From Pseudomonadota bacterium (lineage in GTDB: Bacteria > Pseudomonadota > Alphaproteobacteria > ATCC43930 > CGMCC-115725): a DNA stretch of 34,316 bases. How positions within the stretch are numbered: the stretch's first letter is position 1; each line of letters begins with the position of its first letter. Under the pieces are notes generated by a model. It made no database searches. It worked only from the letters and a program-made list of their open reading frames with translations, and was not told where the DNA came from. The translations under genes were made by a program, and so were the position numbers. The stretch covers positions 1 through 34,316 of the forward strand of contig JAKAOO010000007.1 of assembly GCA_021812165.1 (NCBI GenBank), written 5' to 3'. Shown in pieces: positions 788 to 34,316 of the stretch.

Positions 788-2689
788 TCAATTCTGGCGC
801 AGTTTTTGGAGAATCGCGGCGCGGATGACCGCGGGCTTCATCGGCTGGCCCTTCACCTCGCACCAGCAATCGACATCGATGAGATAGCGCGCGCGCAACA
901 GCATCGCGAGCGCACTGTAGCGGCGGTTCGTCTCGTCGATCAGCGCGTCCTCGGGCTGGTCGCACCAGTTGCCTTCGATCGTCATCACCCGGCCGAAGCC
1001 GGCCATGATCTCCTTGAGGCCCGGCGCCATCGGCTGCAGGAAGGTCAAGTGCACCGAGGAGACCCTGTGCCCTTCCGCTTGCAGCCGCTCCACCGCCTCC
1101 TCGATCGCGCCGCGCGTGCTGCCCCAGCCGACCACCAGAAGATCGCCGCTCGCCGGCCCGAACACCGCCGGCGGCGCCAGAGTCTTTTGCAGCGCCGCCA
1201 GTTTGAGGCTGCGCGCATGGATGCTTTTCTGGTTGGTCTCGGCGTCGTAGGCGACGTGGCTCCGATCGTCGTGAGCAAGCCCCGTCACCGTATGCACGCC
1301 GCCCGCCTGGCCGGGCACGATGCGGCGCATGAGCCCCGTGACGGGATCCCAGTCGTAGGGCTTGGCGCCGGCGGGAAGGCTGCCCTCGTCGGCCGGCGGC
1401 GCGAGCCAGGCGGGATTGAACTGCGGCCGCGGGATCGGCTGCTGCGAGGTCGCGAGCGCCGCGTCGGAAAGCACCACCACGACCATGTTGAAGGTCTCGG
1501 CGATCTTGCGCGCGGTGATGACGGAATAGAAACAGTCTTCGATCGTGGAAGCGGCCATCACCACCTTCGGCGCGTCGCCGTGGCTGCCGAACATGGCGGA
1601 GAGGAGGTCGCCCTGCTCCGCCTTGGTCGGGAGCCCGGTGCTCGGACCGCCGCGCTGCACGTTGACGACGACGAGCGGGATCTCGCCCATGACCGCAAGC
1701 CCGATGCCTTCCTGCTTCAGCGAGAAGCCGGGACCGGAGGTGATGGTGACCGTGCATTTGTTGGCATAAGAAGCGCCGAGGGCGAAGGCGCAGGCGCTGA
1801 TCTCGTCCTCCGCCTGGTGCACCACGCCGCCCACCTTTTCGAACACATCGGCGAGATAATGCGAGGCGGAGGTCGCGGGGGTGATCGGGTACATGGCGCA
1901 AATCTCCATGCCCGAAGCGAGAATGCCCAAGGCGAGCGCGGTGTTGCCGTTGACGACGATCTGCGGCTCGTTCGCGCGCAGGGCGGGAATGCGGTACTGG
2001 AAGGCGAGATTCGATTCCGCCCACGCCGCGCCGGCCTCCAAGAGCCGCAGATTGGTCTCGACCACCTTGGCGTCCTTCTTGCCGAAGACGAGCGCCACCT
2101 GATCGGCCGCGAGCTGCATGTCGAGGTCGTAGATGTTGCAGAGGACGCCAAGGGCGAACATGTTCTTGCCGCGCCGCGGGTCGCTGACGATGGCGCGGCA
2201 TTCCTTCTCCATCGGGATCTCGTGCACGGCGTAGCCGGCCGCGACGAGCTCGTCGTACATCTCGCCGTAGGAGGCGGCGATCGCCGTGTTGCGGTCTTCG
2301 CGCCACATGTTTTCCATGAGGATCGTCGCGCCCGGTTTCAATGCGCCCTCGCGCACGCGCCCCAAAAGCACCTGCTCGTTGAAGGCAATGATGAGATCGG
2401 TCTCGTTGCCGCCATTGGTGATGCGGCGCGAGCCGAAGCGGATGCGGTTGCCGGAGGCGCCGGCAACGCTCCTCGCGGGCGGGCGGATTTCGGCCGGAAT
2501 GATCTCGACCGTCCACACGCCGTAACCCATGCGCGCGGCGATGGCGCCGAGGCACTGGCCGCAACGCTGCGCTCCCTCGCCGGAATCGCTGATCACTTCG
2601 ACGATGTGTTCGGAGGGCGTCGAGAGCGTCCTCGCGCGGGCGCCCTTGGGCGAGATGAGGGGTCGTTCAAGGAGAGTGGCTTCGTTCAT
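788..2689 (-). CDS. korA: 2-oxoacid:ferredoxin oxidoreductase subunit alpha (fused gamma-alpha type)
   Basis: 633 aa. N-terminal gamma-like domain (SDSGEGAQRCGQCLGAIAARMG...ITNGGNETDLIIAFNEQVL) followed by the alpha domain (GNTALALGILASGMEICAMYPITPATSASHYLA...QAEDEISACAFALGASYAN...GPGFSLKQEGIGLAVMGEIPLVVVNVQRGGPSTGLPTKAEQGDL). Confidence 0.94.
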   Translation of the reverse strand: MNEATLLERPLISPKGARARTLSTPSEHIVEVISDSGEGAQRCGQCLGAIAARMGYGVWTVEIIPAEIRPPARSVAGASGNRIRFGSRRITNGGNETDLIIAFNEQVLLGRVREGALKPGATILMENMWREDRNTAIAASYGEMYDELVAAGYAVHEIPMEKECRAIVSDPRRGKNMFALGVLCNIYDLDMQLAADQVALVFGKKDAKVVETNLRLLEAGAAWAESNLAFQYRIPALRANEPQIVVNGNTALALGILASGMEICAMYPITPATSASHYLADVFEKVGGVVHQAEDEISACAFALGASYANKCTVTITSGPGFSLKQEGIGLAVMGEIPLVVVNVQRGGPSTGLPTKAEQGDLLSAMFGSHGDAPKVVMAASTIEDCFYSVITARKIAETFNMVVVVLSDAALATSQQPIPRPQFNPAWLAPPADEGSLPAGAKPYDWDPVTGLMRRIVPGQAGGVHTVTGLAHDDRSHVAYDAETNQKSIHARSLKLAALQKTLAPPAVFGPASGDLLVVGWGSTRGAIEEAVERLQAEGHRVSSVHLTFLQPMAPGLKEIMAGFGRVMTIEGNWCDQPEDALIDETNRRYSALAMLLRARYLIDVDCWCEVKGQPMKPAVIRAAILQKLRQN

Positions 2690-2740
2690 GGCCTGGTCAA
2701 AGCGCTCGGGTTGATCTCAAGCGGGCGCGGCTTTAGAAGC

Positions 2741-2971
2741 TGCGGAAAAACCTCCTGTCATTCCGGGACGGCCCGTGAGGGCCGGGCCCGGAAACCATGA
2801 ACACAGGCCAAGCCATCGATTTCTCGGGCCTGTGTTTATGGATTCCGGGCTCGCGTCCGCGGGCGACGTGCCGGGCACAGCCGCCGGAGGTTCGCTGCGA
2901 AGGCCGCGCAAGGCTGATAGCCCGCGGATCGACCGCGCCCCGGAATGACGACATTCCAGCATTTTTCCGCA
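2741..2971. repeat. MITE-like or repetitive extragenic palindromic element
   Basis: Terminal inverted repeats TGCGGAAAAA (2741-2750) and TTTTTCCGCA (2962-2971). Internal TGTCATTCCGGG / CCCCGGAATGACGACA inverted pair. Internal hairpin with stem CCCGGAAACCATGAACACAGGCC (2787-2809) against GGCCTGTGTTTATGGATTCCGGG (2827-2849). Flanked by a 13-bp direct repeat TAGAAGCTGCGGA (2734-2746 and 2975-2987). Confidence 0.75.
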
Positions 2972-2973
2972 TC

Positions 2974-4464
2974 CTAGAAGCTGCGGATCCGGGCGAAGTT
3001 GCGTTCTCCGGCGGGGATGCCGAAGTGGCTCGCGGCGATGGCGCCGATCGGCTCCGGCTCCGAAATGCCGAGATACGCCTTCATGGCGCGCGCCGCCTTG
3101 CGGCCGGCGCCCATCGCCTCGATCACGGTCGCCGCGCCGGTGACGATGTCGCCGCCGGCGAAGACGCCGGCCATCGACGTCGCGAGCTCCTCGTCGGCCT
3201 CGATGTAGCCGCGCTTATTGAGCCCGATCTTCGAGGTCTGGCCGATGATCGGGTTGGCGTTGGTGCCGATGGCAAAGACCACCTGGTCGCATTCCACCTC
3301 GTGCTCGCTGCCGGCGACGGGCACGGGCCGCGCGCGGCCGGAGGCGTCGGGCTCGCCGAGCTCCATCGCGATGCACCGCAGCGCGCGCACATTGCCGCCC
3401 TCGTCGCCCAGAATTTCGGTGGGCGCCGTCAGCCATTTGAACACGATGCCTTCCTCTTCGGCGTGATGGACCTCCTCGGCGCGCGCCGGGCATTCGGCCC
3501 GGCTGCGGCGATAGACGCAGGTGACGCGCTGGGCGCCGAGACGCAGCGCGACGCGCATCGCGTCCATGGCGGTGTTGCCGGCGCCGACGACGGCGACATT
3601 CTTGCCGAGCGGGATCGGCGTGTCGTAACGGGGAAAGTCGCGCGCCCGCATCAGGTTGCAGCGGGTCAACAGCTCGTTCGCCGACAAGACGCCGTTCAAT
3701 GATTCGCCGGGTATGCCGAGCATCGCCGGAGTGCCGGCGCCGGTGCCGATGAAGACGGCGTCGAAGCCCAGATCGTCGAGCATCTCTTCGATCGTGAAGA
3801 GCCGCCCGATGAGGGTGTTGCACCGGAACGTGACGCCGAGCCGCCGCAGATTCGCGATCTCGGCGTCGACGACCGCGTTCGGCAGGCGGAAGTCGGGGAT
3901 GCCGTAGCGCAACACGCCGCCCGGCTCGTGAAACGCCTCGAACACGGTCACCTCGCAGCCGGCCTTCGCCATGTCGGCGGCGCAGGCCATGCCCGCGGGA
4001 CCGGAACCGATGATGCCGACCCGCCGCCCGCAGGGCTCGATATGCGGCAGGTTCACCCAGCCCTCGACGATGGCGCGGTCGCCGACAAAGCGTTCGAGAC
4101 GGCCGATCGCCACGGGTTCGAGCGTCTCGCCGACGACGCAGACCCCTTCGCACTGAGTCTCCTGCGGGCAGACGCGGCCGCAGACGGCGGGGAGGAGATT
4201 GGTGCGGCCGATCACCTCCCAGGCGCCGCGGAAGTCCTTCATGCCGATGCGCTCGATGAACCCGGGGATGTCGATGCCGACGGGGCAGCCTTCGATGCAG
4301 ATGGGATCGGGGCAAAAGAGGCAGCGCTCGCTTTCGACGAGCGCCGCCTTTTCGTCATAACCGAGACTGACCTCGCCGAAATTGGCGGCGCGCTCGCCGG
4401 CCTTCTGTTCGGAAACCGAAGTGCGGCTTTGCGGGATGGTGCGGATCGTTCGTTTCTTCGCCAT
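2974..4464 (-). CDS. NAD(P)-dependent oxidoreductase, glutamate synthase small subunit / NfnB / SudA-like
   Basis: From MAKKRTIRTIPQSRTSVSEQKAGERAANFGEVSLGYDEKAALVESERCLFCPDPICIEGCPVGIDIPGFI; two N-terminal Fe-S cysteine clusters, FAD motif GSGPAGMACAADMAKAG, second dinucleotide motif GAGNTAMDAMRVALRLGA. The ATG at 4464 fits better than the ORF-track start at 4686. Confidence 0.92.
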   Translation of the reverse strand: MAKKRTIRTIPQSRTSVSEQKAGERAANFGEVSLGYDEKAALVESERCLFCPDPICIEGCPVGIDIPGFIERIGMKDFRGAWEVIGRTNLLPAVCGRVCPQETQCEGVCVVGETLEPVAIGRLERFVGDRAIVEGWVNLPHIEPCGRRVGIIGSGPAGMACAADMAKAGCEVTVFEAFHEPGGVLRYGIPDFRLPNAVVDAEIANLRRLGVTFRCNTLIGRLFTIEEMLDDLGFDAVFIGTGAGTPAMLGIPGESLNGVLSANELLTRCNLMRARDFPRYDTPIPLGKNVAVVGAGNTAMDAMRVALRLGAQRVTCVYRRSRAECPARAEEVHHAEEEGIVFKWLTAPTEILGDEGGNVRALRCIAMELGEPDASGRARPVPVAGSEHEVECDQVVFAIGTNANPIIGQTSKIGLNKRGYIEADEELATSMAGVFAGGDIVTGAATVIEAMGAGRKAARAMKAYLGISEPEPIGAIAASHFGIPAGERNFARIRSF

Positions 4465-4493
4465 GACCAATGACCGGGTTCTTGCGATCGCTC

Positions 4494-5375
4494 TCACGCT
4501 CTGCCGCCGAGGCTCGTCATGCGGCAGTTCTCCGACCAGTGCTCGAGCGCCCTTTTCTCCTCCTCGCTGTAGCGCTTGAGGCGCCGCATCAGATCGTCGA
4601 AGTCGACAAGGTGGCCGTCGAAATCGGGCCCGTCGACGCAGGCGAATTTGACCGCTCCGCCGAGCTTGACGCGGCAGCCGCCGCACATGCCGGTGCCGTC
4701 GACCATGATCGGGTTGAGGGAGACGGTGGTCTTGATGCCGGAGGGACGCGTCACCTCCGCGCAGGCTTTCATCATGATGGGAGGACCGATCGCCACCACC
4801 TCGTCGATGTCGGGATGCGCGGCGAGGGCGGAGCGGATGCCGTCGCTGACAAAGCCTTTCATCCCCGCCGAGCCGTCATCGGTGCAGAGGATCACCTCGT
4901 CGCAGAACGCGCGAAACTTCTCTTCCCAGAAGATTAATGCGCGGTTACGGAAGCCGAGAATGCCGATGACATAGGCGCCCTTTTCCTTGAACGCGCGCAG
5001 CTGGGGAAAGATCGGCGCCACGCCGAGGCCGCCGCCGACGCAGGCAACCTTTTTCACGGTGCCGATATGCGTCGGGGTGCCGAGCGGCCCCACCAGCGCG
5101 TGGAGGCGCGCGCCCGCCCGACAGGTCTGCTGCATCTCGCGGGTGGTCTTGCCGACCGCCTGAACGACGAGGGTGACGGTGCCTCGGGCGCGGTCGAAGT
5201 CCGCAAGGGTGAGCGGAATGCGCTCGCCCTCTTCATGCAGCATGACGATGACGAATTGTCCGGCCCGCGCCGCCTTCGCCATCAGCGGATGGCGGATTTC
5301 GAGGAGATAGGTGACGTCGGAAAAATCCTGCCGGCGGACGATCTCGAAGCCATACTCTTCTAGGACGTCGTTCAT
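4494..5375 (-). CDS. Sulfide/dihydroorotate dehydrogenase-like FAD/NAD-binding protein (NfnA/SudB-like)
   Basis: MNDVLEEYGFEIVRRQDFSDVTYLLEIRHPLMAKAARAGQFVIVMLHEEGERIPLTLADFD...; PyrK-like C-terminal [2Fe-2S] motif MCGGCRVKLGGAVKFACVDGPDFDGHLVDF. Confidence 0.91.
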   Translation of the reverse strand: MNDVLEEYGFEIVRRQDFSDVTYLLEIRHPLMAKAARAGQFVIVMLHEEGERIPLTLADFDRARGTVTLVVQAVGKTTREMQQTCRAGARLHALVGPLGTPTHIGTVKKVACVGGGLGVAPIFPQLRAFKEKGAYVIGILGFRNRALIFWEEKFRAFCDEVILCTDDGSAGMKGFVSDGIRSALAAHPDIDEVVAIGPPIMMKACAEVTRPSGIKTTVSLNPIMVDGTGMCGGCRVKLGGAVKFACVDGPDFDGHLVDFDDLMRRLKRYSEEEKRALEHWSENCRMTSLGGRA

Positions 5376-5464
5376 TGTCCCTGGTCCTCGGCCCTCGCGA
5401 ATGAAGGCCGGTCGCAAATGAAGCCGTTGCGACTGCCCACTAAGCCAAAAGCCGGCGCGGGCAA

Positions 5465-5478
5465 TTGATATGGATCAA
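5465..5478. promoter_or_regulatory. FNR/FixK-type binding site (TTGAT-N4-ATCAA)
   Basis: TTGATATGGATCAA is an exact match to the FNR/FixK consensus. It lies ~90 bp upstream of the NfnA/SudB-like start codon (5375), with a weak -10-like TTAGTG at the class II spacing on the minus strand. Confidence 0.7.
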
Positions 5479-5638
5479 GATGTCCCGCGCATAGCTGGCG
5501 CGCGACCCAGACCCAGACCCATCCTTCCCGGCACGCTGACGGGAAAGAAGGCTGCGCTCCGCAGCTCCCGCCCGCGCGGCTTTGGCGAAAGAAGATGCCC
5601 GAAATTTTCCTCTTGTTTTCTTGCCGCTCCGGAGTAGG

Positions 5639-6007
5639 ATGCGAACAATTCTCGTTTGCATCAGCAGCCGGAGACATCCCGTGCGGCCTCTCGCCCAATT
5701 CCTCGCTTTTGCGCTTTTCGCCTTTCCGGCCGCGGCGCTCGCCGCCACTCCGCAGTTTTCGATCGCATTGAAGGCGCACCAATTCGTCCCGAAAGAACTG
5801 GAAATCCCCGCCGGCAAAAAGGTCGAACTCAGAGTCCGCAACAACGACCCCGCTCCCGCGGAGTTCGAAAGCACCTCGCTCCATCGCGAAGAAGTCGTTG
5901 TCGGCGGCGGGGAGATCCGCGTCTTTCTGGGGCCTCTCGATCCCGGACGCTACACGTTTTTCGACGACTTCCATCCTTCGACGCGCGGCACGCTCATCGT
6001 CAAGTAG
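5639..6007 (+). CDS. Cupredoxin-domain periplasmic protein
   Basis: Signal peptide then ATPQFSIALKAHQFVPKELEIPAGKKVELRVRNNDPAPAEFESTSLHREEVVVGGGEIRVFLGPLDPGRYTFFDDFHP; cupredoxin_1-like pattern. Confidence 0.82.
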   Translation: MRTILVCISSRRHPVRPLAQFLAFALFAFPAAALAATPQFSIALKAHQFVPKELEIPAGKKVELRVRNNDPAPAEFESTSLHREEVVVGGGEIRVFLGPLDPGRYTFFDDFHPSTRGTLIVK

Positions 6008-6024
6008 CGGCGGGCGGCATCGCG

Positions 6025-6780
6025 ATGCGTCCGCCGGTCGCCGCGATTCTCTTCGCACTTCTGACGTTCCTCTTCGGTGCCTCGCGCGCGCTTGCCGATT
6101 TCAAGGTGTGGCAGCCCGACGCCGAGTTCGGCGAAACGGCGCTCGAAACGGTCGGCGACTGGGGCTACGATCCCCTCTCCAAAAAAAGCGACGAACGAAG
6201 CTTTACGGAAGAATTCGAACGCGGGGTGACGCCCTTCTGGCGCACGGAACTCGAACTCGAGGAAAACCGCCTTCCGGGACCCGACAATTCGACGAATTTC
6301 GCCCAAGCGACCTCCGAAAACCTGTTTCAGTTTACGCCCCGGGGGGAATATTGGCTCGATGCCGGGTTCTTCTTCGAGTACGGCCAATCGATGCTGCCCG
6401 ACACCCCCAGCGAGACCACCTTCGGTCCCGTACTGCGCAAGGAGATCTTTCACACGATCGACACCGTCAACCTCTTCATCGAGAAGGATCTCGGCAATTA
6501 TGCTGGCGGGAGGCCCAATTTTCTCTACGCCTGGGAGACGCGCATCGACCTCGGAACGAGCATCGAGCCGGGCTTCCAGGCGTATGGCTTCGTCGGCCCT
6601 TTGACCCATTTGACGCCGCTCCGGGAAGAAGACCATCGCCTTGGACCAATGCTCTTCGGCACGATTGTCGCGCTCGGCCCCGGGGCTTTGCGTTGGAACG
6701 GCGGGGTCCTGTTCGGCCTGACCGCGCCCGCGCCGCTCGTCACGCTGCGCTGGCAGGCGGAATACGAGATCCATTTCTGA
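6025..6780 (+). CDS. Putative secreted/outer-membrane beta-barrel protein of unknown function
   Basis: MRPPVAAILFALLTFLFGASRALADFKVWQPDAEFGE...; signal peptide, alternating aromatic/hydrophobic strands, C-terminal EYEIHF. Directly follows the cupredoxin. Confidence 0.7.
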   Translation: MRPPVAAILFALLTFLFGASRALADFKVWQPDAEFGETALETVGDWGYDPLSKKSDERSFTEEFERGVTPFWRTELELEENRLPGPDNSTNFAQATSENLFQFTPRGEYWLDAGFFFEYGQSMLPDTPSETTFGPVLRKEIFHTIDTVNLFIEKDLGNYAGGRPNFLYAWETRIDLGTSIEPGFQAYGFVGPLTHLTPLREEDHRLGPMLFGTIVALGPGALRWNGGVLFGLTAPAPLVTLRWQAEYEIHF

Positions 6781-26803: not shown

Positions 26804-28057
26804 ATGCCGATGCCTAGGGGAATGGATCTCTCGCGGCGCTCGCTTTTGCTGGCCGGCGCCGCAACGATGACGATGGGGCGGGCGTGGGCCGCGACGGAAT
26901 CAAAGCCGGTCGAGATGGCGTTCGTCCTGCCGCTTTCGGGGCCGTGGGCACGCGACGGCCTTTTGGAGCGCGAAGGCGCCGAGATGGCCGTCGACGACGT
27001 CAACAAATCGGGCGGCATCAAGGCTCTGGGCGGGGCCAAGATGAAACTCATCATCGCCGACGCCGGGGACACGCCGGAAAAGGCGAAGGACGCCACGCAG
27101 CGGGTCATCTCCCAATATCCGGGCCTCGTTGCCGGCGCCGGCTGCTGGCTCAGTTCCCTGACGCTCGCGGCGACCGAAGTGAGCGAGCGCGCCCATCTGC
27201 CTTGGCTCACCCTCTCTTACGCGGATTCGATCACCGACCGCGGCTTTCACTACGTCTTCCAGACCTCGCCGCCCGGCAGCACGCAGGCGCGACAGACGCT
27301 TCCGGCGGTCATCGCGGTTGCCGTGGCGGCCACTGGCAAGAAGCCGGCGACCACCATGATCATCACCGACAACACGGCGGCGCCTCTCTCCGTCGTAAAG
27401 CCGATGGTAGAGGGCGGGCTCCTCAAAAAAGCCGGCGTCAAGCTGCTCGCCGAGGAGATCTTCACCCCACCCCTTTCCGACGCCACGCCGCTCGCCCAGA
27501 AGGTGCGCGCGCTGCGGCCCGACTTCCTTTTCCAGTTTACGAGCAACGTGCCGGACGACGCGTTGATGCTCGAAACCTTGACCGAGATGGGCCTGCCGCG
27601 TTCGGTTTTGCCGGTGGTCGGCAACGGCGCCCATATCGTCACTCCCGAGCTCCTCAAAGTCGCCGGCAAGAACATCATGGACGGGGTCATGACGGGCGTC
27701 GGCAACTGGCCGACAAAAAAGGCCGAGAGTCTGGTCGAGCGGTTCAAGAAACGAACCGGAGAGCCGTGGATGGGCCAGGACAGCATCTCCGCCTACGGCC
27801 ACGTGATGATCGTCAAATGGGCGCTCGAAAAGACGAAAGTCGCCAATCGAGAAAAAGTCAACGCCGCGATCCATGCGATGGGCACCTCGACCGGTCCCGC
27901 AGATTATTTCCCCGGAAAGGTGCTCAAATTCGACGCCAACGGCCGCCGCAGCGGAGCGCCTCTCGTCATCGTGCAATGGCAGAATGGCACCCCCGTCACC
28001 GTCGGCCCGCCGGAATTCGCCGTCGCCAAGGCGATCTGGCCGAAAAAGGCGGGGTAG
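26804..28057 (+). CDS. ABC transporter substrate-binding protein (Leu/Ile/Val-binding family)
   Basis: Tat-like MDLSRRSLLLAGAATMTMGRAWA signal, VEMAFVLPLSGPWARDGLLEREGAEMAVDDVNKSGGIKALGGAKMKLIIADAGDTPEKAKDATQRVI. Confidence 0.91.
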   Translation: MPMPRGMDLSRRSLLLAGAATMTMGRAWAATESKPVEMAFVLPLSGPWARDGLLEREGAEMAVDDVNKSGGIKALGGAKMKLIIADAGDTPEKAKDATQRVISQYPGLVAGAGCWLSSLTLAATEVSERAHLPWLTLSYADSITDRGFHYVFQTSPPGSTQARQTLPAVIAVAVAATGKKPATTMIITDNTAAPLSVVKPMVEGGLLKKAGVKLLAEEIFTPPLSDATPLAQKVRALRPDFLFQFTSNVPDDALMLETLTEMGLPRSVLPVVGNGAHIVTPELLKVAGKNIMDGVMTGVGNWPTKKAESLVERFKKRTGEPWMGQDSISAYGHVMIVKWALEKTKVANREKVNAAIHAMGTSTGPADYFPGKVLKFDANGRRSGAPLVIVQWQNGTPVTVGPPEFAVAKAIWPKKAG

Positions 28058-28078: not shown

Positions 28079-28096
28079 ATGTCATAAATCTGTCAT
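28079..28096 (+). promoter_or_regulatory. PHO box (PhoB-type site)
   Basis: ATGTCAT-AAAT-CTGTCAT: two heptamers at an 11-bp period matching CTGTCAT-N4-CTGTCAY. A -10-like TATAGT (28107-28112) lies 10 bp downstream, ahead of the CYTH/CHAD gene. Confidence 0.8.
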
Positions 28097-28142
28097 CGGG
28101 AAAGGCTATAGTCGGTACGCGGCGATCGGACGGAGATTTTCC

Positions 28143-29783
28143 ATCGGGACCGAGGTCGAACTGAGGTTCGCGGCGGCGGCGGCCGATTTGCAAAAATTGC
28201 GGGATGCGCTGCTCGTCATGGCACCGGGCGCCACCCCCTCGCGGTCGTGTCTCTGCGCGACCTATTACGACACCGCGGATCGTGCCTTGAACCGGCGCGG
28301 GATGAGCCTCAGGGTGCGCGAGGCCGACGGCCGGTTCGTGCAAAGCGTCAAAGCCGACGGCACAGCCGATGCGGGCGTGCCGATGCGGGGTGAGTGGGAG
28401 GACGAGATCGCGGGCGGCAAGCCCGATCTCGAGGCGCCTCTTTCCGGCGGCCGCCTGCCGCCGGGAATCGCCGACCATCTCAAGCCTCTTTTCGCGACCG
28501 CGGTCACGCGAACGACGATCGCCCTCGAACCCTCCCCGTCGCTCCTCATCGAGGCGGCGATCGAGGAGGGCGAGATCCGCGGGATCGCGTCTGCGGCCGC
28601 CGAGGAAATCGCCGAGGTCGAGCTCGAATTGAAGCGGGGCGAACCGGCCGCCCTCCTCGACGCCGCACTCCAATTGCTGCGGGCGGCGCCCCTTCATATC
28701 GAGGTGCGCAGCAAGGCCGAACGAGGCTACGCCGCCATTGCCGGCAGCGGGGAGGCGGCGCCGGCGGTGCACGCCCCGCCGATTGTCCTCGGCCGGGCGA
28801 TGCCGGCCGAGGCGGCCCTCAAAAGCATCGGCCGCGCCTGCGTCCTCCATCTTCTGCGCAACGAGAGGGCCGTCCTTGCGGGCGAACCCGAGGGAGTGCA
28901 TCAGATGCGGGTCGCGTCGCGGCGAATCCGGGCGGCGCTCCGGGCTATGAGGAAGGTGCTCTCCGGCGCAGAACGGCAGCAGGTCAAAGCCGAACTCGAC
29001 CGGCTCGACGAGGTCCTCGCACCGGCGCGCAACCTCGACGTGTTCGCGGGCGATCTCCTCTCGCCGGCCCGCGCGGCGCTCTGCGAGCCCCCTTCCGCGA
29101 AAGCCGGGGAGGCCGGTCTCGGCCACCTCGCCTTGGCGGTAGAGACGGCCCGCCAAGCCGCCCATGAGGGCGTCAGGGAGCTTCTCGCCTCGCCGCGCTA
29201 CACCGAGGCCGTGCTGCGCCTGTTGCGCTCTTTCGAGGCCGTCGGGGCGCCCCGCGAAGGATTGCCTCGCGGGCAACCCGGCCGGCGCGGCGCGCCGGGG
29301 CCCTCCGAGCCCATCGGCACTCTCGCGCCGCGGCTCTTCGATCGCTGCCTCAAAAGCGTCAGGAGGCGCGGCAAGGGCTATCGCCAAGCGAGCGCCGGAG
29401 AGCGCCACAAGCTGCGGATAGCGGTCAAGGAGTTGCGGTATGCGGGCGAGCTTTTGGCGAGCCTTTTCGATCCGGAACTTGTTCGCAGCTTCGGCAAGCC
29501 TTTGCGAACGCTGCAAGCCGATCTCGGCTACGAGAACGATGTGCGCGTCGGGCGCGAGCTTCTGGGCGAGATCGCTGCGCAAGCCGCCGACCGGGAGGCG
29601 ATTGCCGCCGAGGGAGCCTCCATGCTCGGTTGGCACGAGGAGCGGGTCCGTGAGAGGGAGCGCAAGGTCGCCAAGCACCTGAGGCGGCTGAACCGGGCCG
29701 AGCCGTTCTGGAGATCGGCGCCCTCGGCGGAGGCGCCGTCGCCCGACCCGCCTACCGACGCGGCGCCCCCGGCCTTGCAGTAG
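28143..29783 (+). CDS. CYTH and CHAD domain-containing protein (probable polyphosphate-binding)
   Basis: CYTH signature (I)GTEVELRF, then CHAD domain EGVHQMRVASRRIRAALRAMRKVL...RNLDVFAGDLL...GERHKLRIAVKELRYAGELLASLF. No ATG/GTG/TTG at the expected N-terminus; ATC at 28143 inferred (SD-like ACGGAG just upstream). Confidence 0.88.
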   Translation: MGTEVELRFAAAAADLQKLRDALLVMAPGATPSRSCLCATYYDTADRALNRRGMSLRVREADGRFVQSVKADGTADAGVPMRGEWEDEIAGGKPDLEAPLSGGRLPPGIADHLKPLFATAVTRTTIALEPSPSLLIEAAIEEGEIRGIASAAAEEIAEVELELKRGEPAALLDAALQLLRAAPLHIEVRSKAERGYAAIAGSGEAAPAVHAPPIVLGRAMPAEAALKSIGRACVLHLLRNERAVLAGEPEGVHQMRVASRRIRAALRAMRKVLSGAERQQVKAELDRLDEVLAPARNLDVFAGDLLSPARAALCEPPSAKAGEAGLGHLALAVETARQAAHEGVRELLASPRYTEAVLRLLRSFEAVGAPREGLPRGQPGRRGAPGPSEPIGTLAPRLFDRCLKSVRRRGKGYRQASAGERHKLRIAVKELRYAGELLASLFDPELVRSFGKPLRTLQADLGYENDVRVGRELLGEIAAQAADREAIAAEGASMLGWHEERVRERERKVAKHLRRLNRAEPFWRSAPSAEAPSPDPPTDAAPPALQ

Positions 29784-29866
29784 TGGCCCTGGCGCTGCGA
29801 TCGGGACGATAGGGGGGCGGTCACTCGGAGGGGGCGCCGATGCGTCTGCGCCGCCCGCCTGCGCGT

Positions 29867-30958
29867 TCAAGACGCTGGGGAGCGGGTGACGGCACCCCGC
29901 TCGTACCATCTGCGCGTCCGCCGCACGATCCGCACCACCGAGAGCATGACGGGCACTTCCACGAGCACGCCGACGACGGTCGCGAGCGCCGCCCCGGACT
30001 GGAAGCCGAAGAGCGCGATCGCCGCCGCAACCGCCAGCTCGAAAAAGTTCGAGGCGCCAATCAGCGCGGAAGGGCAGGCGACGGTGTACGGAACCCGCAG
30101 CATCCGGTTGAGCGTATAGGCGATCGCCGCGTTCAGATAAACCTGGACCACGATCGGAACGGCGAGGAGCGCGATCACGGCCGGCTGCCGGAGGATCTCT
30201 TCCCCCTGGAACCCGAAGAGGAGAACGAGGGTGGCCAAGAGCGCGAGGAGAGAGACCGGTTGGAGCCGCCGCATGGTTCCGGCCAGAGCCGCCTCGCCAC
30301 CGGCCGCCACGAGCGATCGCCGCCACAATTGCGCGGCGATGACCGGCACGACGATGTAGAGGACGACCGAGAGGAAGAGCGTCTCCCACGGCACGCGGAT
30401 CGCGGAGAGGCCGAGCAGAAGGCCGACGATCGGTGCGAACGCGAACACCATGATCGTGTCGTTGAGCGCGACCTGGCTCAGGGTGAAGTTCGGGTCGCCG
30501 TCCGTCAGGTTCGACCACACGAACACCATCGCCGTGCAAGGCGCGGCGGCAAGGAGAATGAGGCCGGCGATGTAGCTGTCGATCTCTGCCCCCGGCAGCC
30601 ACGTGCGAAAGAGATAGCCGATGAAGAGCCAGCCGAGCGCCGCCATGCTGAACGGCTTTATGAGCCAGTTGACCCCAACCGTCACCGCGATGCCGCGCCA
30701 TTCTTCGGCAACCCGACGCAAGGCCCCGAAATCGACCTTCATCAGCATCGGCACGATCATCAGCCAGATCAGCACCGCAACCGGAATGTTGACCGCGGCC
30801 ACCGTCATGCGGCCCAGATCCTCGAACGGGCCCGGCAGAAGCCGGCCGAGCGCGATGCCGGCAAGGATGCAGAGCGCGACCCAGAGCGTCAGGTAACGCT
30901 CGAAGGCGCCGAGCGCGGGAGTGGTAGGGCGCGGTGGTGCATCGACAACCGAACTCAT
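29867..30958 (-). CDS. acr3: ACR3-family arsenite efflux permease
   Basis: FERYLTLWVALCILAGIALGRLLPG...IPVAVLIWLMIVPMLMKVDFGAL...LILLAAAPCTAMVFVWSNLTDGDPNFTLSQVALND; characteristic ACR3 motifs. Confidence 0.94.
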   Translation of the reverse strand: MSSVVDAPPRPTTPALGAFERYLTLWVALCILAGIALGRLLPGPFEDLGRMTVAAVNIPVAVLIWLMIVPMLMKVDFGALRRVAEEWRGIAVTVGVNWLIKPFSMAALGWLFIGYLFRTWLPGAEIDSYIAGLILLAAAPCTAMVFVWSNLTDGDPNFTLSQVALNDTIMVFAFAPIVGLLLGLSAIRVPWETLFLSVVLYIVVPVIAAQLWRRSLVAAGGEAALAGTMRRLQPVSLLALLATLVLLFGFQGEEILRQPAVIALLAVPIVVQVYLNAAIAYTLNRMLRVPYTVACPSALIGASNFFELAVAAAIALFGFQSGAALATVVGVLVEVPVMLSVVRIVRRTRRWYERGAVTRSPAS

Positions 30959-31031
30959 GGTTCCTCCATCAGGGCGCAGGGGCCGATCTCGTCGGCGCCG
31001 CTCCAGCGTCTTGGACTTGCGTAGAAATTCA

Positions 31032-31075
31032 GCGAAGGAACGGGCCGAGCCGTCGCCGCGGCTCGGCCCCTTCGC
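31032..31075 (-). terminator. Strong hairpin, candidate terminator/attenuator between the phosphoesterase gene and acr3
   Basis: GCGAAGG-AAC-GGGCCGAGCC-loop-GGCTCGGCCC-CTTCGC, a perfect inner stem of ~10 bp plus an outer stem. On the minus strand it is not followed by a long T-run. Confidence 0.5.
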
Positions 31076-31106
31076 TCTCCTTTTTGAAACGGGCACAATG
31101 AAGCGG

Positions 31107-33017
31107 CTAATTCCGGCCGAAGCTGAACATGCCCGTCAGGTTGCCGATCGCCGGGCTGTTTTCGGGGACATAGGGGTTGTTTTTCGCGGCGATCGGGTTC
31201 GGGAGGTTGTCGCGGCTGTCGGCCGAGATCGTCTGGCCGATATTCCAGTTTCTCTCGACAAACTTGTCGAAGGAGACGTGATCGTAATAGGTGTGCACCA
31301 TCCCGACGCCCTTCGACAGAGGCGAAACGACAAGGAGCGGGACGCGCGTGCCGTCGCCGAAGAAGTCGATCGGCTGGATATAACCGGAATCGTAATATCC
31401 GCCGCCCTCGTCGAAGGTGATCATGATCGCGGTGTGCCGCCAAAGCGACGGGTTGGCTTGGATCATATCGATGATCTTGCGCGAGAACCCTTCGAGCAGT
31501 TCGAGCTTGGAGGAGGCCGGGTGGCCGTCGAGGAAGCCGTCCGGCTTGACGATCGAGACTGCCGGCAAGGCATTATTCTGGATATCTGCATAAAGCTGGT
31601 GAATGCCTTGCAGGTTCTGGCGCAAGGCCGGGTTGGTCATGATCTGCGTCGAATAGAGGAAGGGATCGCAGATGTTGCAGTAGCCGCCGCTGCCGTTGTA
31701 TTTTTCCCCGTCCTCTTTGCCGCCGTCCCAGCCTTCGCCATAATATCTCCACGAGATGTCATGCGCCGTCAAAAGCAGGCCGAGATTGGGCTCCTCGCTT
31801 GGCGGAATCGTGAAGTCGGTGGCTCCCAAAGGCGCCGGGGTGCCGTTCCCGAGGTAACCGGGATTATAGTTGTTGACGAGATAATACGCGTTGCTCTCGC
31901 AATCGCCGCCGTTGAACGGCTGGTAGGGGAGCGAGGTCAGATAGCCCATGACGGGCGCGACGCCCGGCTGGGTCGGGTCGGAGCAACCGACATAAGAACC
32001 GCCCCCGTATCCGTCCTCGGTGTACCAGTTGTTCGTTCCCGCCATCGGATTGGGATTCTCGATCTGGTTCGAGGGCGGCGTGCCGGGAGTGCCGCCGGGA
32101 TTGGCGTAAAAGATCGTCGTGCCGAAGCCGAAGGCGATGTGGTTCGCCCCGGTGCCGCCGAGGATCGCCTGATGGTAGTTGTCGGCAAGCGCATATTCGT
32201 GGGCGAGTTTGGTAAAATAGCTCACGTCGCCTGCCGCCACATTGTAAAAGCCCATCGAATTGGCGCCTTCCTCGGTGCTCTCGTCGGTAAAGGGCGAGGG
32301 CGGAGGGTTGCCGTTGCCGCCGGTGCCGACCGTGACTCCAACCCATGGGAAAAGGTCGTTTTTGCAGCCGCTCGGGTTCTGTGCGGTCGCTGTGGTCCCG
32401 TCGCAATCGATCTCCTGCCACATCTGGAAGAAGCGATGCACGATGTCGCCCGTGTAATCGTCGTAGGAAACCGAGCTTGTCAGGTCGAACGGGCCGTTCG
32501 GCAAATTCGAGGGAAAGCGGCTGTCGGCCGAATTCGCAGGCAGACCCGTTCCGCCGATCGTCAGGAGGTTATAGGCGTTGTTTGGAAGCGCCGGCTCGAC
32601 CGATTGCGCAGCGGCCACGGAAGGAAAGGGCGCGCTGATGTGGGCGTAGTTGGTATTTGGCTGCGGCAGGACGCCGAAGGGCGAAGTCTTGGTGGGGTGG
32701 ATCGAATACGTCCCTGTGTCGGAGGCCTGCCATTGTTGGGCTGAAGCGAAATTAGGCCCGGGAGTGCCGTCGGCATTGACGATGCCTTCGGAAAGCAGGT
32801 TCCAAACCGTCTGTCCCTTGTTGGGGACAAAGGTGCCGAAAACGTTGTCGAACGTGCGATTCTCCCCGATGATCAGGATCACGTGCTTGATCGGGGTCCT
32901 TGTCGCGTCGTCGCCACGCCCTTCCTGCGCGTAAGCCTGCGGCGCGGCAAGCGCCCCGCCCAGCACGCCGGCAAGCATGAGAGGGGCGAGCCATATCTTA
33001 GAGCGCTGTGCTTTCAT
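31107..33017 (-). CDS. Secreted phospholipase C/acid phosphatase-type phosphoesterase (PF04185-like)
   Basis: MKAQRSKIWLAPLMLAGVLGGALAAPQAYAQ signal peptide; IKHVILIIGENRTFDNVFGTFVP, LADNYHQAILGGTGANH, ITFDEGGGYYDSG, RVPLLVVSPLSK, YDHVSFDKFVERNW motifs. Confidence 0.92.
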   Translation of the reverse strand: MKAQRSKIWLAPLMLAGVLGGALAAPQAYAQEGRGDDATRTPIKHVILIIGENRTFDNVFGTFVPNKGQTVWNLLSEGIVNADGTPGPNFASAQQWQASDTGTYSIHPTKTSPFGVLPQPNTNYAHISAPFPSVAAAQSVEPALPNNAYNLLTIGGTGLPANSADSRFPSNLPNGPFDLTSSVSYDDYTGDIVHRFFQMWQEIDCDGTTATAQNPSGCKNDLFPWVGVTVGTGGNGNPPPSPFTDESTEEGANSMGFYNVAAGDVSYFTKLAHEYALADNYHQAILGGTGANHIAFGFGTTIFYANPGGTPGTPPSNQIENPNPMAGTNNWYTEDGYGGGSYVGCSDPTQPGVAPVMGYLTSLPYQPFNGGDCESNAYYLVNNYNPGYLGNGTPAPLGATDFTIPPSEEPNLGLLLTAHDISWRYYGEGWDGGKEDGEKYNGSGGYCNICDPFLYSTQIMTNPALRQNLQGIHQLYADIQNNALPAVSIVKPDGFLDGHPASSKLELLEGFSRKIIDMIQANPSLWRHTAIMITFDEGGGYYDSGYIQPIDFFGDGTRVPLLVVSPLSKGVGMVHTYYDHVSFDKFVERNWNIGQTISADSRDNLPNPIAAKNNPYVPENSPAIGNLTGMFSFGRN

Positions 33018-33088
33018 CGCGATTTCCCTTCTTTTGATGAAACCGCGCGAAAGATAGAGTCTCGTGGTTACACTATTTTGTCGGAAAA

Positions 33089-33106
33089 AAGTCAGTGCGA
33101 TGACGG
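33089..33106 (-). promoter_or_regulatory. Weak PHO-box-like site upstream of the phosphoesterase gene
   Basis: Minus strand CCGTCAT-CGCA-CTGACTT (11 of 14 heptamer positions by eye) followed 10-11 bp later by AAATAGT. Confidence 0.35.
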
Positions 33107-33198
33107 CCGGTCGCTTTTGCAAAGCGCTGCGGGCGGGGCCAGGGGCTTCGCTCGCGCCGGCCGGCGATGCAGCGAGGAGAGCGCTCACGCTTTTTCCG

Positions 33199-33696
33199 TC
33201 AGAGGCGCCGGCCGAGCGCATCGGCGCGGCGCTTCAGAGACAGGCGGTCGAGCTTGTCGATCGGCAGCGCGAGGAAGAGCTTGATCCGCGTCTCGAGCCG
33301 CCGGCAGGCGTTATCGAAGGCTTGCCTGCGCTCCTCTGCCGTGCCCTCGACGGCAGCCGGGTCGGGCACGCCCCAATGCGCGGTGACGGGATTGCCCGGC
33401 CAAAGGGGGCAGGCTTCGCCGGCCGCCTCATCGCAGACCGTAAAGACGAAATCCATGACCGGCGCGCCCGGCCGCGTGAATTCCTCCCAGCTTTTGCTGT
33501 AGAGCCCGCTCGTGCGCAGACGGCGCCGTTCGAGCAGCTCGAGTGCGAGCGGGTGCACGGCCCCCTTCGGGAAGCTTCCGCCGCTATAGGCTTTGAAGCG
33601 TCCCTTGCCCCAATGGTCGAGCAGGGCCTCGGCAAGGATGCTTCGCGCCGAGTTGCCCGTGCAGAGAAAGAGAACGTTGTAGACATTGTTGCTCAT
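33199..33696 (-). CDS. arsC: Arsenate reductase ArsC (low-molecular-weight protein tyrosine phosphatase family)
   Basis: YNVLFLCTGNSARSILAEALLDHWGKGRFKAYSGGSFPKGAVHPLALELLE...; CX5R-type active site CTGNSAR. Confidence 0.93.
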   Translation of the reverse strand: MSNNVYNVLFLCTGNSARSILAEALLDHWGKGRFKAYSGGSFPKGAVHPLALELLERRRLRTSGLYSKSWEEFTRPGAPVMDFVFTVCDEAAGEACPLWPGNPVTAHWGVPDPAAVEGTAEERRQAFDNACRRLETRIKLFLALPIDKLDRLSLKRRADALGRRL

Positions 33697-33721
33697 TTGG
33701 GCCGGCCGAGGATCGGCGCCG

Positions 33722-34081
33722 TCACGCTGCCGTGGTCTTCGGTTGGGAATCCGCGACCGCAGCCGCGGGGTTGCAGAGGGGCCTCGATGCCGCCCCGTCT
33801 CGGCCGCAGCAGTTTTCGGTCAGGTAGGCGAGGAGCGCGTTCATCGTTCCGTATTCGGCCGAATAGAGGAGCTGCCGGCTTCTGCGGCGCTGCGCGATGA
33901 GTCCGCAGTGGACGAGCTGCGCCAGGTGAAAGGAGAGCGAGGAGGGATGGACGCCAAGGCGTTTCGCAATGATCCCCGCGGGCAAGCCTTCGGGGCCGCA
34001 TGCGACGAGCAGCCGATAGAGTTCGAGCCGGGTCTCCTGGGCGAGCGCGCCCAAGGCGGCGATTGCCCGGATTCGATCCAT
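33722..34081 (-). CDS. arsR: ArsR/SmtB-family transcriptional regulator
   Basis: AALGALAQETRLELYRLLVACGPEGLPAGIIAKRLGVHPSSLSFHLAQLVHCGLIAQRRRSRQLLYSAEYGTMNALLAYLTENCCGRD; wHTH plus a C-terminal Cys pair. Confidence 0.93.
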   Translation of the reverse strand: MDRIRAIAALGALAQETRLELYRLLVACGPEGLPAGIIAKRLGVHPSSLSFHLAQLVHCGLIAQRRRSRQLLYSAEYGTMNALLAYLTENCCGRDGAASRPLCNPAAAVADSQPKTTAA

Positions 34082-34190
34082 GGGACGTCACATTCCGATT
34101 CTTCAGCAAGTATCAAAATAATAGCCGCCGTCATGCGAGTCAACGATAATTCTCAAAATATCGGAGGATGCGATCCTACCACCGCCGAGA

Positions 34191-34208
34191 GGGTCATAAA
34201 TCTGTCAT
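34191..34208 (+). promoter_or_regulatory. Second PHO box
   Basis: GGGTCAT-AAAT-CTGTCAT; shares 18 identical nt (GTCATAAATCTGTCATCG) with the box at 28079-28096, with CTAGGGT at the same 10-bp spacing. Confidence 0.72.
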
Positions 34209-34278
34209 CGAAGGACGCTAGGGTGCCGCTCGCTTTCGGGGGGCCGAGAGCGCGCTCCGCTTGTCGCGGTGCGAGGCA

Positions 34279-34316
34279 TGACAGATGAAATGACAGATGA
34301 AAGGAACTTTTTCGAT
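34279..34316 (+). CDS. 5' end of an unidentified gene running off the window
   Basis: ATGACAGATGAAATGACAGATGAAAGGAACTTTTTCGAT = MTDEMTDERNFFD, open to the window edge, downstream of the second PHO box. Alternative starts at GTG 34270 or ATG 34291. Confidence 0.4.

Follow-up and report, generated by a model that had tools for sequence, protein, structure and literature searches.

The question raised by this locus is why a gene for a predicted exported phosphoesterase lies within an arsenic resistance operon, between arsenate reduction and arsenite efflux. In the window, by which we mean the whole stretch of 34,316 nucleotides that was analysed, the order is arsR-arsC-phosphoesterase-acr3, all on the minus strand, with 181 bp (33018-33198) between arsC and the phosphoesterase gene and 148 bp (30959-31106) between that gene and acr3, the latter gap holding a GC hairpin. 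This is the order given in the preliminary description, and both gaps are exact. The presence of arsR, arsC and the arsenite efflux gene acr3 in a common orientation makes this an ars operon, and the ars genes on either flank of the phosphoesterase gene are intact. The features are as follows.

33722-34081, minus strand: arsR, ArsR/SmtB-family repressor, 119 aa (NF033788, 56 bits against a 55-bit cut-off)
33199-33696, minus strand: arsC, thioredoxin-type arsenate reductase of the LMWP fold (PF01451; TIGR02691 match under its cut-off)
33078-33106, minus strand: PHO-box array CCGTCAT-CGCA-CTGACTT-TTTT-CCGACAA, upstream of the phosphoesterase gene (motif scan and shuffles)
31107-33017, minus strand: phosphoesterase, PF04185, predicted to be exported, 636 aa (Pfam profile; Sec-type signal peptide by eye)
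31038-31073, minus strand: strong, terminator-like GC hairpin 3' of the phosphoesterase stop codon (93% complementary arms, 6-nt loop)
30955-31006, minus strand: remnant (scar) of an arsC 3' end, ...ADEIG...MEEP*, its TGA overlapping the acr3 ATG (match to the arsC/acr3 joint of relatives)
29867-30958, minus strand: acr3, arsenite efflux permease (TIGR00832, 377 bits against a 283-bit cut-off)

By sequence, ArsR has a C-terminal Cys-Cys...Cys arrangement as in arsenite-sensing types, and ArsC has both the P-loop CTGNSAR and the cysteine pair VC...ACP.

The phosphoesterase matches PF04185 with 169 bits against a gathering score of 23, and is thus a member of the AcpA/PLC superfamily. It had been described as of phospholipase C type, which holds at the level of the superfamily and no further: it scores 119 bits against the cut-off of 580 for phosphocholine-specific phospholipase C (TIGR03396) and 138 bits against the cut-off of 363 for the Burkholderia-type acid phosphatase (TIGR03397). 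The Sec-type signal peptide ends in AYA, with cleavage placed after AYA by eye. Across 22 homologues the motifs ENR, GGTGANH, DGHP, DEGGGYYD and DH show little or no variation, and we take the catalytic roles of ENR, the (G)GT nucleophile loop, HP, DEG and DH to be those of AcpA and the PLC enzymes. An AlphaFold model (mean pLDDT 73, which is moderate; pTM 0.83) has Francisella AcpA (2d1g) as its best fold match, with probability 1.00 and 17% identity, and the top matches are AcpA and PlcN/PlcH-type enzymes. As the pLDDT is moderate and the global superposition on AcpA and PLC structures loose, we go no further than to predict an exported phosphomonoesterase or phosphodiesterase. Its subfamily is little described and is annotated as "alkaline phosphatase family protein", and there are at least three further PF04185 genes in the genome.

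With regard to regulation, three PHO half-sites at 11-bp spacing, the period by which the PHO box is defined (PMC4415409), lie suitably placed upstream of the phosphoesterase gene and make it a candidate member of the Pho regulon. The array is imperfect, with 6 mismatches in 21 positions, and its 18-mer has 3 mismatches to CTGTCATN4CTGTCAT, but when the upstream region was shuffled 500 times with dinucleotides preserved, neither the two-site nor the three-site score of the array was reached once. An AAATAGT sequence lies about 10 bp beyond the second half-site. The preliminary description had noted both elements and called the PHO-box-like sequence weak; they are real, and the array is stronger than that word implies. 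Among homologues the arrays are enriched (27 upstream regions against 351 others, p 9e-8 for three sites and 2e-6 for two), kinship among the homologues making these values overstate independence, and congeneric copies have clearer ones, CTGTCAT-CGAA-CCGTCAT-CATA-CCGTCAA in genome G005 and GCGTCAT-TTGA-ACGTCAT-CTCA-CTGTCAT in G007. There is no array upstream of the nearest homologue (75% identity), that of locus L037 in Centralia_MAG_294.

The hairpin in the 148-bp gap was also correctly recognised, at about -32 kcal/mol in a 44-nt slice, though no U-run follows it and it was not among the sites given by a scan for intrinsic terminators. Hairpins 3' of the homologues are unusually strong (mean -26.4 against -20.4 kcal/mol, p 6e-7), and some have T-runs. 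The earlier proposal that the phosphoesterase gene is its own transcription unit within the operon is supported by the PHO-box promoter and this hairpin. Since both elements recur in the homologues, we suggest that the gene is normally a single, predicted Pho-controlled unit and that it came into the ars operon as such.

The pairing with ars genes is not recurrent. A homologue of the phosphoesterase (E<=1e-20) is present in 22 of the 39 genomes of the GTDB family, and a sample of 385 genomes of the class gave only 4 matches at E<=1e-60, so that the distribution of the subfamily is patchy. In the survey of ars loci that had been proposed, about 20 further acr3 loci from the order (four of them viewed within 1.5 kb only) all lack the gene beside acr3, and ars genes are beside the homologue at none of about 30 loci, which include L037 and three plasmids (of Paraburkholderia, Methylocella and Bradyrhizobium), with varying flanks and some short contigs. 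L037 has neither an ars nor a pst neighbour, and the closest approach is in genome G022, with a homologue and acr3 about 17 kb apart on one contig. The family and order survey, the class sample and the plasmid neighbourhoods together rule out the phosphoesterase as a recurrent ars gene, which makes a conserved arsenic role for it unlikely; the nested arrangement was seen in one MAG-like genome only. In most relatives with both arsC and acr3, arsC directly precedes acr3, and their operons often have arsM or an ArsI-like glyoxalase-family gene further upstream, as identified by sequence inspection. By the same means an AqpS-like aquaglyceroporin gene was found beside arsC in the place of acr3 at four loci (L094-L097, in G004, G026, G036 and G017). 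Homologues of the phosphoesterase also occur as tandem pairs, at L048 (G005, 2522-6657) and L058 (G006), and the members of the G005 pair belong to different clades of the tree and each have a PHO array.

How the gene came to its present position can be read in part from the DNA before acr3. The 52-bp scar matches the 3' end of the arsC that abuts acr3 in relatives, CGACGAGATCGGCC, coding for ADEIG, and for five relatives its score was equalled by none of 300 shuffles. It thus marks an ancestral arsC/acr3 joint that was interrupted, with the insert running from about 33198 to about 31007. As a complete arsC, 73-75% identical to the acr3-adjoining arsC of relatives, is present as well, the scar stems either from a duplication of the arsC end during insertion or from another arsC of which most has been lost. 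Transposon-like ends were considered for the phosphoesterase cassette and ruled out, there being no terminal repeats. In the tree the phosphoesterase groups not with the copies of its congeners but with L037 of a distant genome (support 100/99), and its GC content is 60% against 66-67% for its neighbours, and it was thus probably acquired horizontally.

The operon is itself part of a larger insertion, described by the following features.

26804-28057, plus strand: livK-type binding protein, adjoining pstS on its left where the site is empty (profile search; comparison with sister genome G008)
28079-28096, plus strand: PHO box copy 1, ATGTCATAAATCTGTCAT, 1 mismatch, the best in the genome, upstream of the CYTH-CHAD gene (genome scan)
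28081-34210, no strand assigned: segment of about 6.1 kb between 18-bp direct repeats GTCATAAATCTGTCATCG, missing from the livK-pstS gap of G008
28143-29783, plus strand: CYTH-CHAD protein with domains related to polyphosphate, start codon probably ATC (profile search; orthologue comparison)
34191-34208, plus strand: PHO box copy 2, GGGTCATAAATCTGTCAT, promoter of the divergent pstS (identical 18-mer at C50:6631-6648)
34191-34316, plus strand: overlap of 126 bp with contig C50, the pstS upstream region (equal to C50:6523-6648)

The repeat copies of the segment start at 28081 and 34193, and its five called genes are those for CYTH-CHAD, Acr3, the phosphoesterase, ArsC and ArsR, with no transposase or integrase among them. 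In G008 the site is empty: a PHO box, GGGTCACAAATCTGTCATCG, and pstS (80%) come immediately after livK (83%). The empty site and the two repeat copies indicate that the segment entered at the pstS PHO box, either with duplication or via PHO-box recombination. Copy 1 of the box now lies upstream of the CYTH-CHAD gene, with TATAGT 10 bp behind it. Within the genus, the orthologues of this gene lie at other places and lack a PHO box, which rules it out as an ancestral Pho gene; it has probably acquired its box at the pstS promoter. In the family the orthologues mostly have ATT or ATC behind GGAGG at the start position (window 28079-28160), so that a rare start codon may be conserved.

On the other side of the segment the pstS ATG starts at about 34315, and the gene continues on C50 as pstS-pstC-pstA. 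C50 ends 9 bp past the overlap in TTCCGATCT (C50:6523-6657), which we take to be the end of Illumina adapters, so that the break between it and the window's contig (C24) appears artefactual; we join the two on the assembly overlap and on synteny. arsR is thus divergent from pstS at a distance of 233 bp, and the PHO box in this interval faces pstS. A genome-wide scan for the PHO-box pattern with up to 3 mismatches gave 78 matches against 33 in a reversed control. Window position 28079 ranks first, with its 1 mismatch, and window 34191 and C50:6631 are among the five sites with 2 mismatches, C50:6631 belonging to the promoter of the sole pstS detected in the genome. Repeats of CTGTCCTGAGCCTGTCGA on contigs C105, C128 and C129, spaced at 24 bp on C128, mimic a PHO box with 3 mismatches and are likely a dispersed repeat. 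No relative of this PstS on plasmids was above 54%. A phoB gene is present, above its curated cut-off, and lies with a phoR-like kinase gene, pstB and phoU, these three identified by reading the sequence, on contig C111 (9500-18000, locus L209); pstSCA is absent there, being at the ars locus instead. The ars locus thus has a phosphate context beyond what the preliminary description could see, given by pstSCA divergent from arsR and by the empty site in the sister genome. Arsenate defence is here joined physically to the acquisition of phosphate, and the empty site, the scar and the duplicated PHO boxes show how the only detected pst importer, the phosphoesterase gene and the ars operon became one locus.

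We think it probable that a self-contained phosphate-starvation phosphoesterase unit was inserted into an ars operon that had itself been placed, with the CYTH-CHAD gene, in the pstSCA promoter region. Arsenate is a phosphate analogue and enters via phosphate importers, so that phosphate-starved cells are the most exposed. At low phosphate PhoB would bind the PHO boxes and turn on pstSCA, the way in for arsenate, as well as the exported phosphoesterase, which would act outside the cytoplasm to free phosphate from organic phosphates or phospholipids, and probably also the CYTH-CHAD gene. With ArsR in control, ArsC would reduce the arsenate that enters through Pst and Acr3 would expel it, and the combination may be of benefit. 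The PhoB regulon of Caulobacter includes a phospholipase C (PMC11208175), in keeping with this reading.

The main competitor, which we regard as possible but the lesser candidate, is that a Pho-regulated phosphoesterase gene, mobile or prone to duplication, arrived here by chance and that its position has no functional meaning. The absence of the pairing from the other acr3 and homologue loci fits this well, as do the occurrence of homologues in tandem and in unrelated neighbourhoods, the sister-branch relationship with the copy of a far genome and the low GC content. However the locus is Pho-linked at both sides, with two strong PHO boxes and pstSCA, and the flanking ars genes have stayed intact, both of which speak against a chance passenger. 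A different view gives the insertion a regulatory effect, with read-through from the phosphoesterase PHO promoter adding phosphate-starvation induction of acr3 to its control by ArsR. There is no promoter-like site in the 148-bp gap ahead of acr3, the two genes are on the same strand, the hairpin has no U-run and the arsenate importer next door carries a PHO box. We nevertheless hold this to be unlikely, as the intervening hairpin is very strong and the hairpins of homologues seem to act as terminators; the insertion may, on the contrary, have separated acr3 from the control of arsR. More doubtful still is a full feed-forward circuit, in which PhoB at phosphate starvation would simultaneously switch on Pst, through which arsenate enters, an exported phosphatase that makes the cell less dependent on Pst and, via read-through, Acr3. 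If true, arsenate detoxification would be armed before arsenic is sensed, and the locus allows a direct test of whether promoter insertion can put arsenic defence under phosphate-starvation control.

An assembly chimera has to be considered for a metagenome-derived genome in 312 contigs with one contig break from adapter sequence, but we find it very improbable: the arsC scar, the complete arsC end and the conserved Acr3 start would be hard to obtain that way, and livK-pstS synteny with the sister genome supports the outer joints. The suggestion that the enzyme acts on arsenolipids or organoarsenicals would explain its position, which is the only point in its favour, but the family is otherwise outside ars loci everywhere and is PHO-boxed, and where the ars operons of relatives include arsM or ArsI-like genes, no phosphoesterase gene accompanies them. 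This idea finds no support, the distribution of the enzyme family being against it, and is the least credible of the readings. Having weighed these, we keep to an inserted Pho unit in a pst-linked operon, most likely a phosphate-scavenging gene under Pho control that an ars island linked to pst has captured.

Exported, Pho-regulated phospholipases C of the PF04185 family are known in Pseudomonas as PlcN and PlcH. The enzyme of the window shares the family with them, and its export and Pho control are predicted; unlike the Pho-regulated phospholipases C it falls under the NCBIfam cut-offs of both named subfamilies. With AcpA it has the active-site motifs in common as well as the fold, but it differs in overall sequence, in its larger insertions and in the looseness of the superposition. 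The closest parallels for the locus are the arsenic islands with pst, pho or phn genes of Agrobacterium tumefaciens 5A, Sinorhizobium sp. M14 and others (PMC3834237, PMC7965956, PMC7533571). Li et al. (2013) use the term for aioBA arsenite oxidase genes with ars and pst, and there are no aio genes among those scanned in the window and C50. Most of what is known of Pho/Ars cross-talk comes from arsenite oxidisers, and here we have a locus without visible aio genes. In A. tumefaciens 5A, ArsR1 represses the nearby pstS1 and phoB1 (PMC7965956), and by analogy ArsR may also act on the pstS adjoining the window. As in those islands, ars genes are beside a pst operon and the Pho and ArsR controls meet. 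In contrast to them, the adjoining pstSCA includes the sole pstS detected in the genome and is no accessory pst1, and a PHO-boxed phosphoesterase gene within the ars operon has no counterpart in the passages on them that were consulted. A literature search of partial coverage gave no report of such a gene inside an ars operon. The linkage of Pho and ars genes is already known from these systems, and it is the nested phosphoesterase arrangement that is new.
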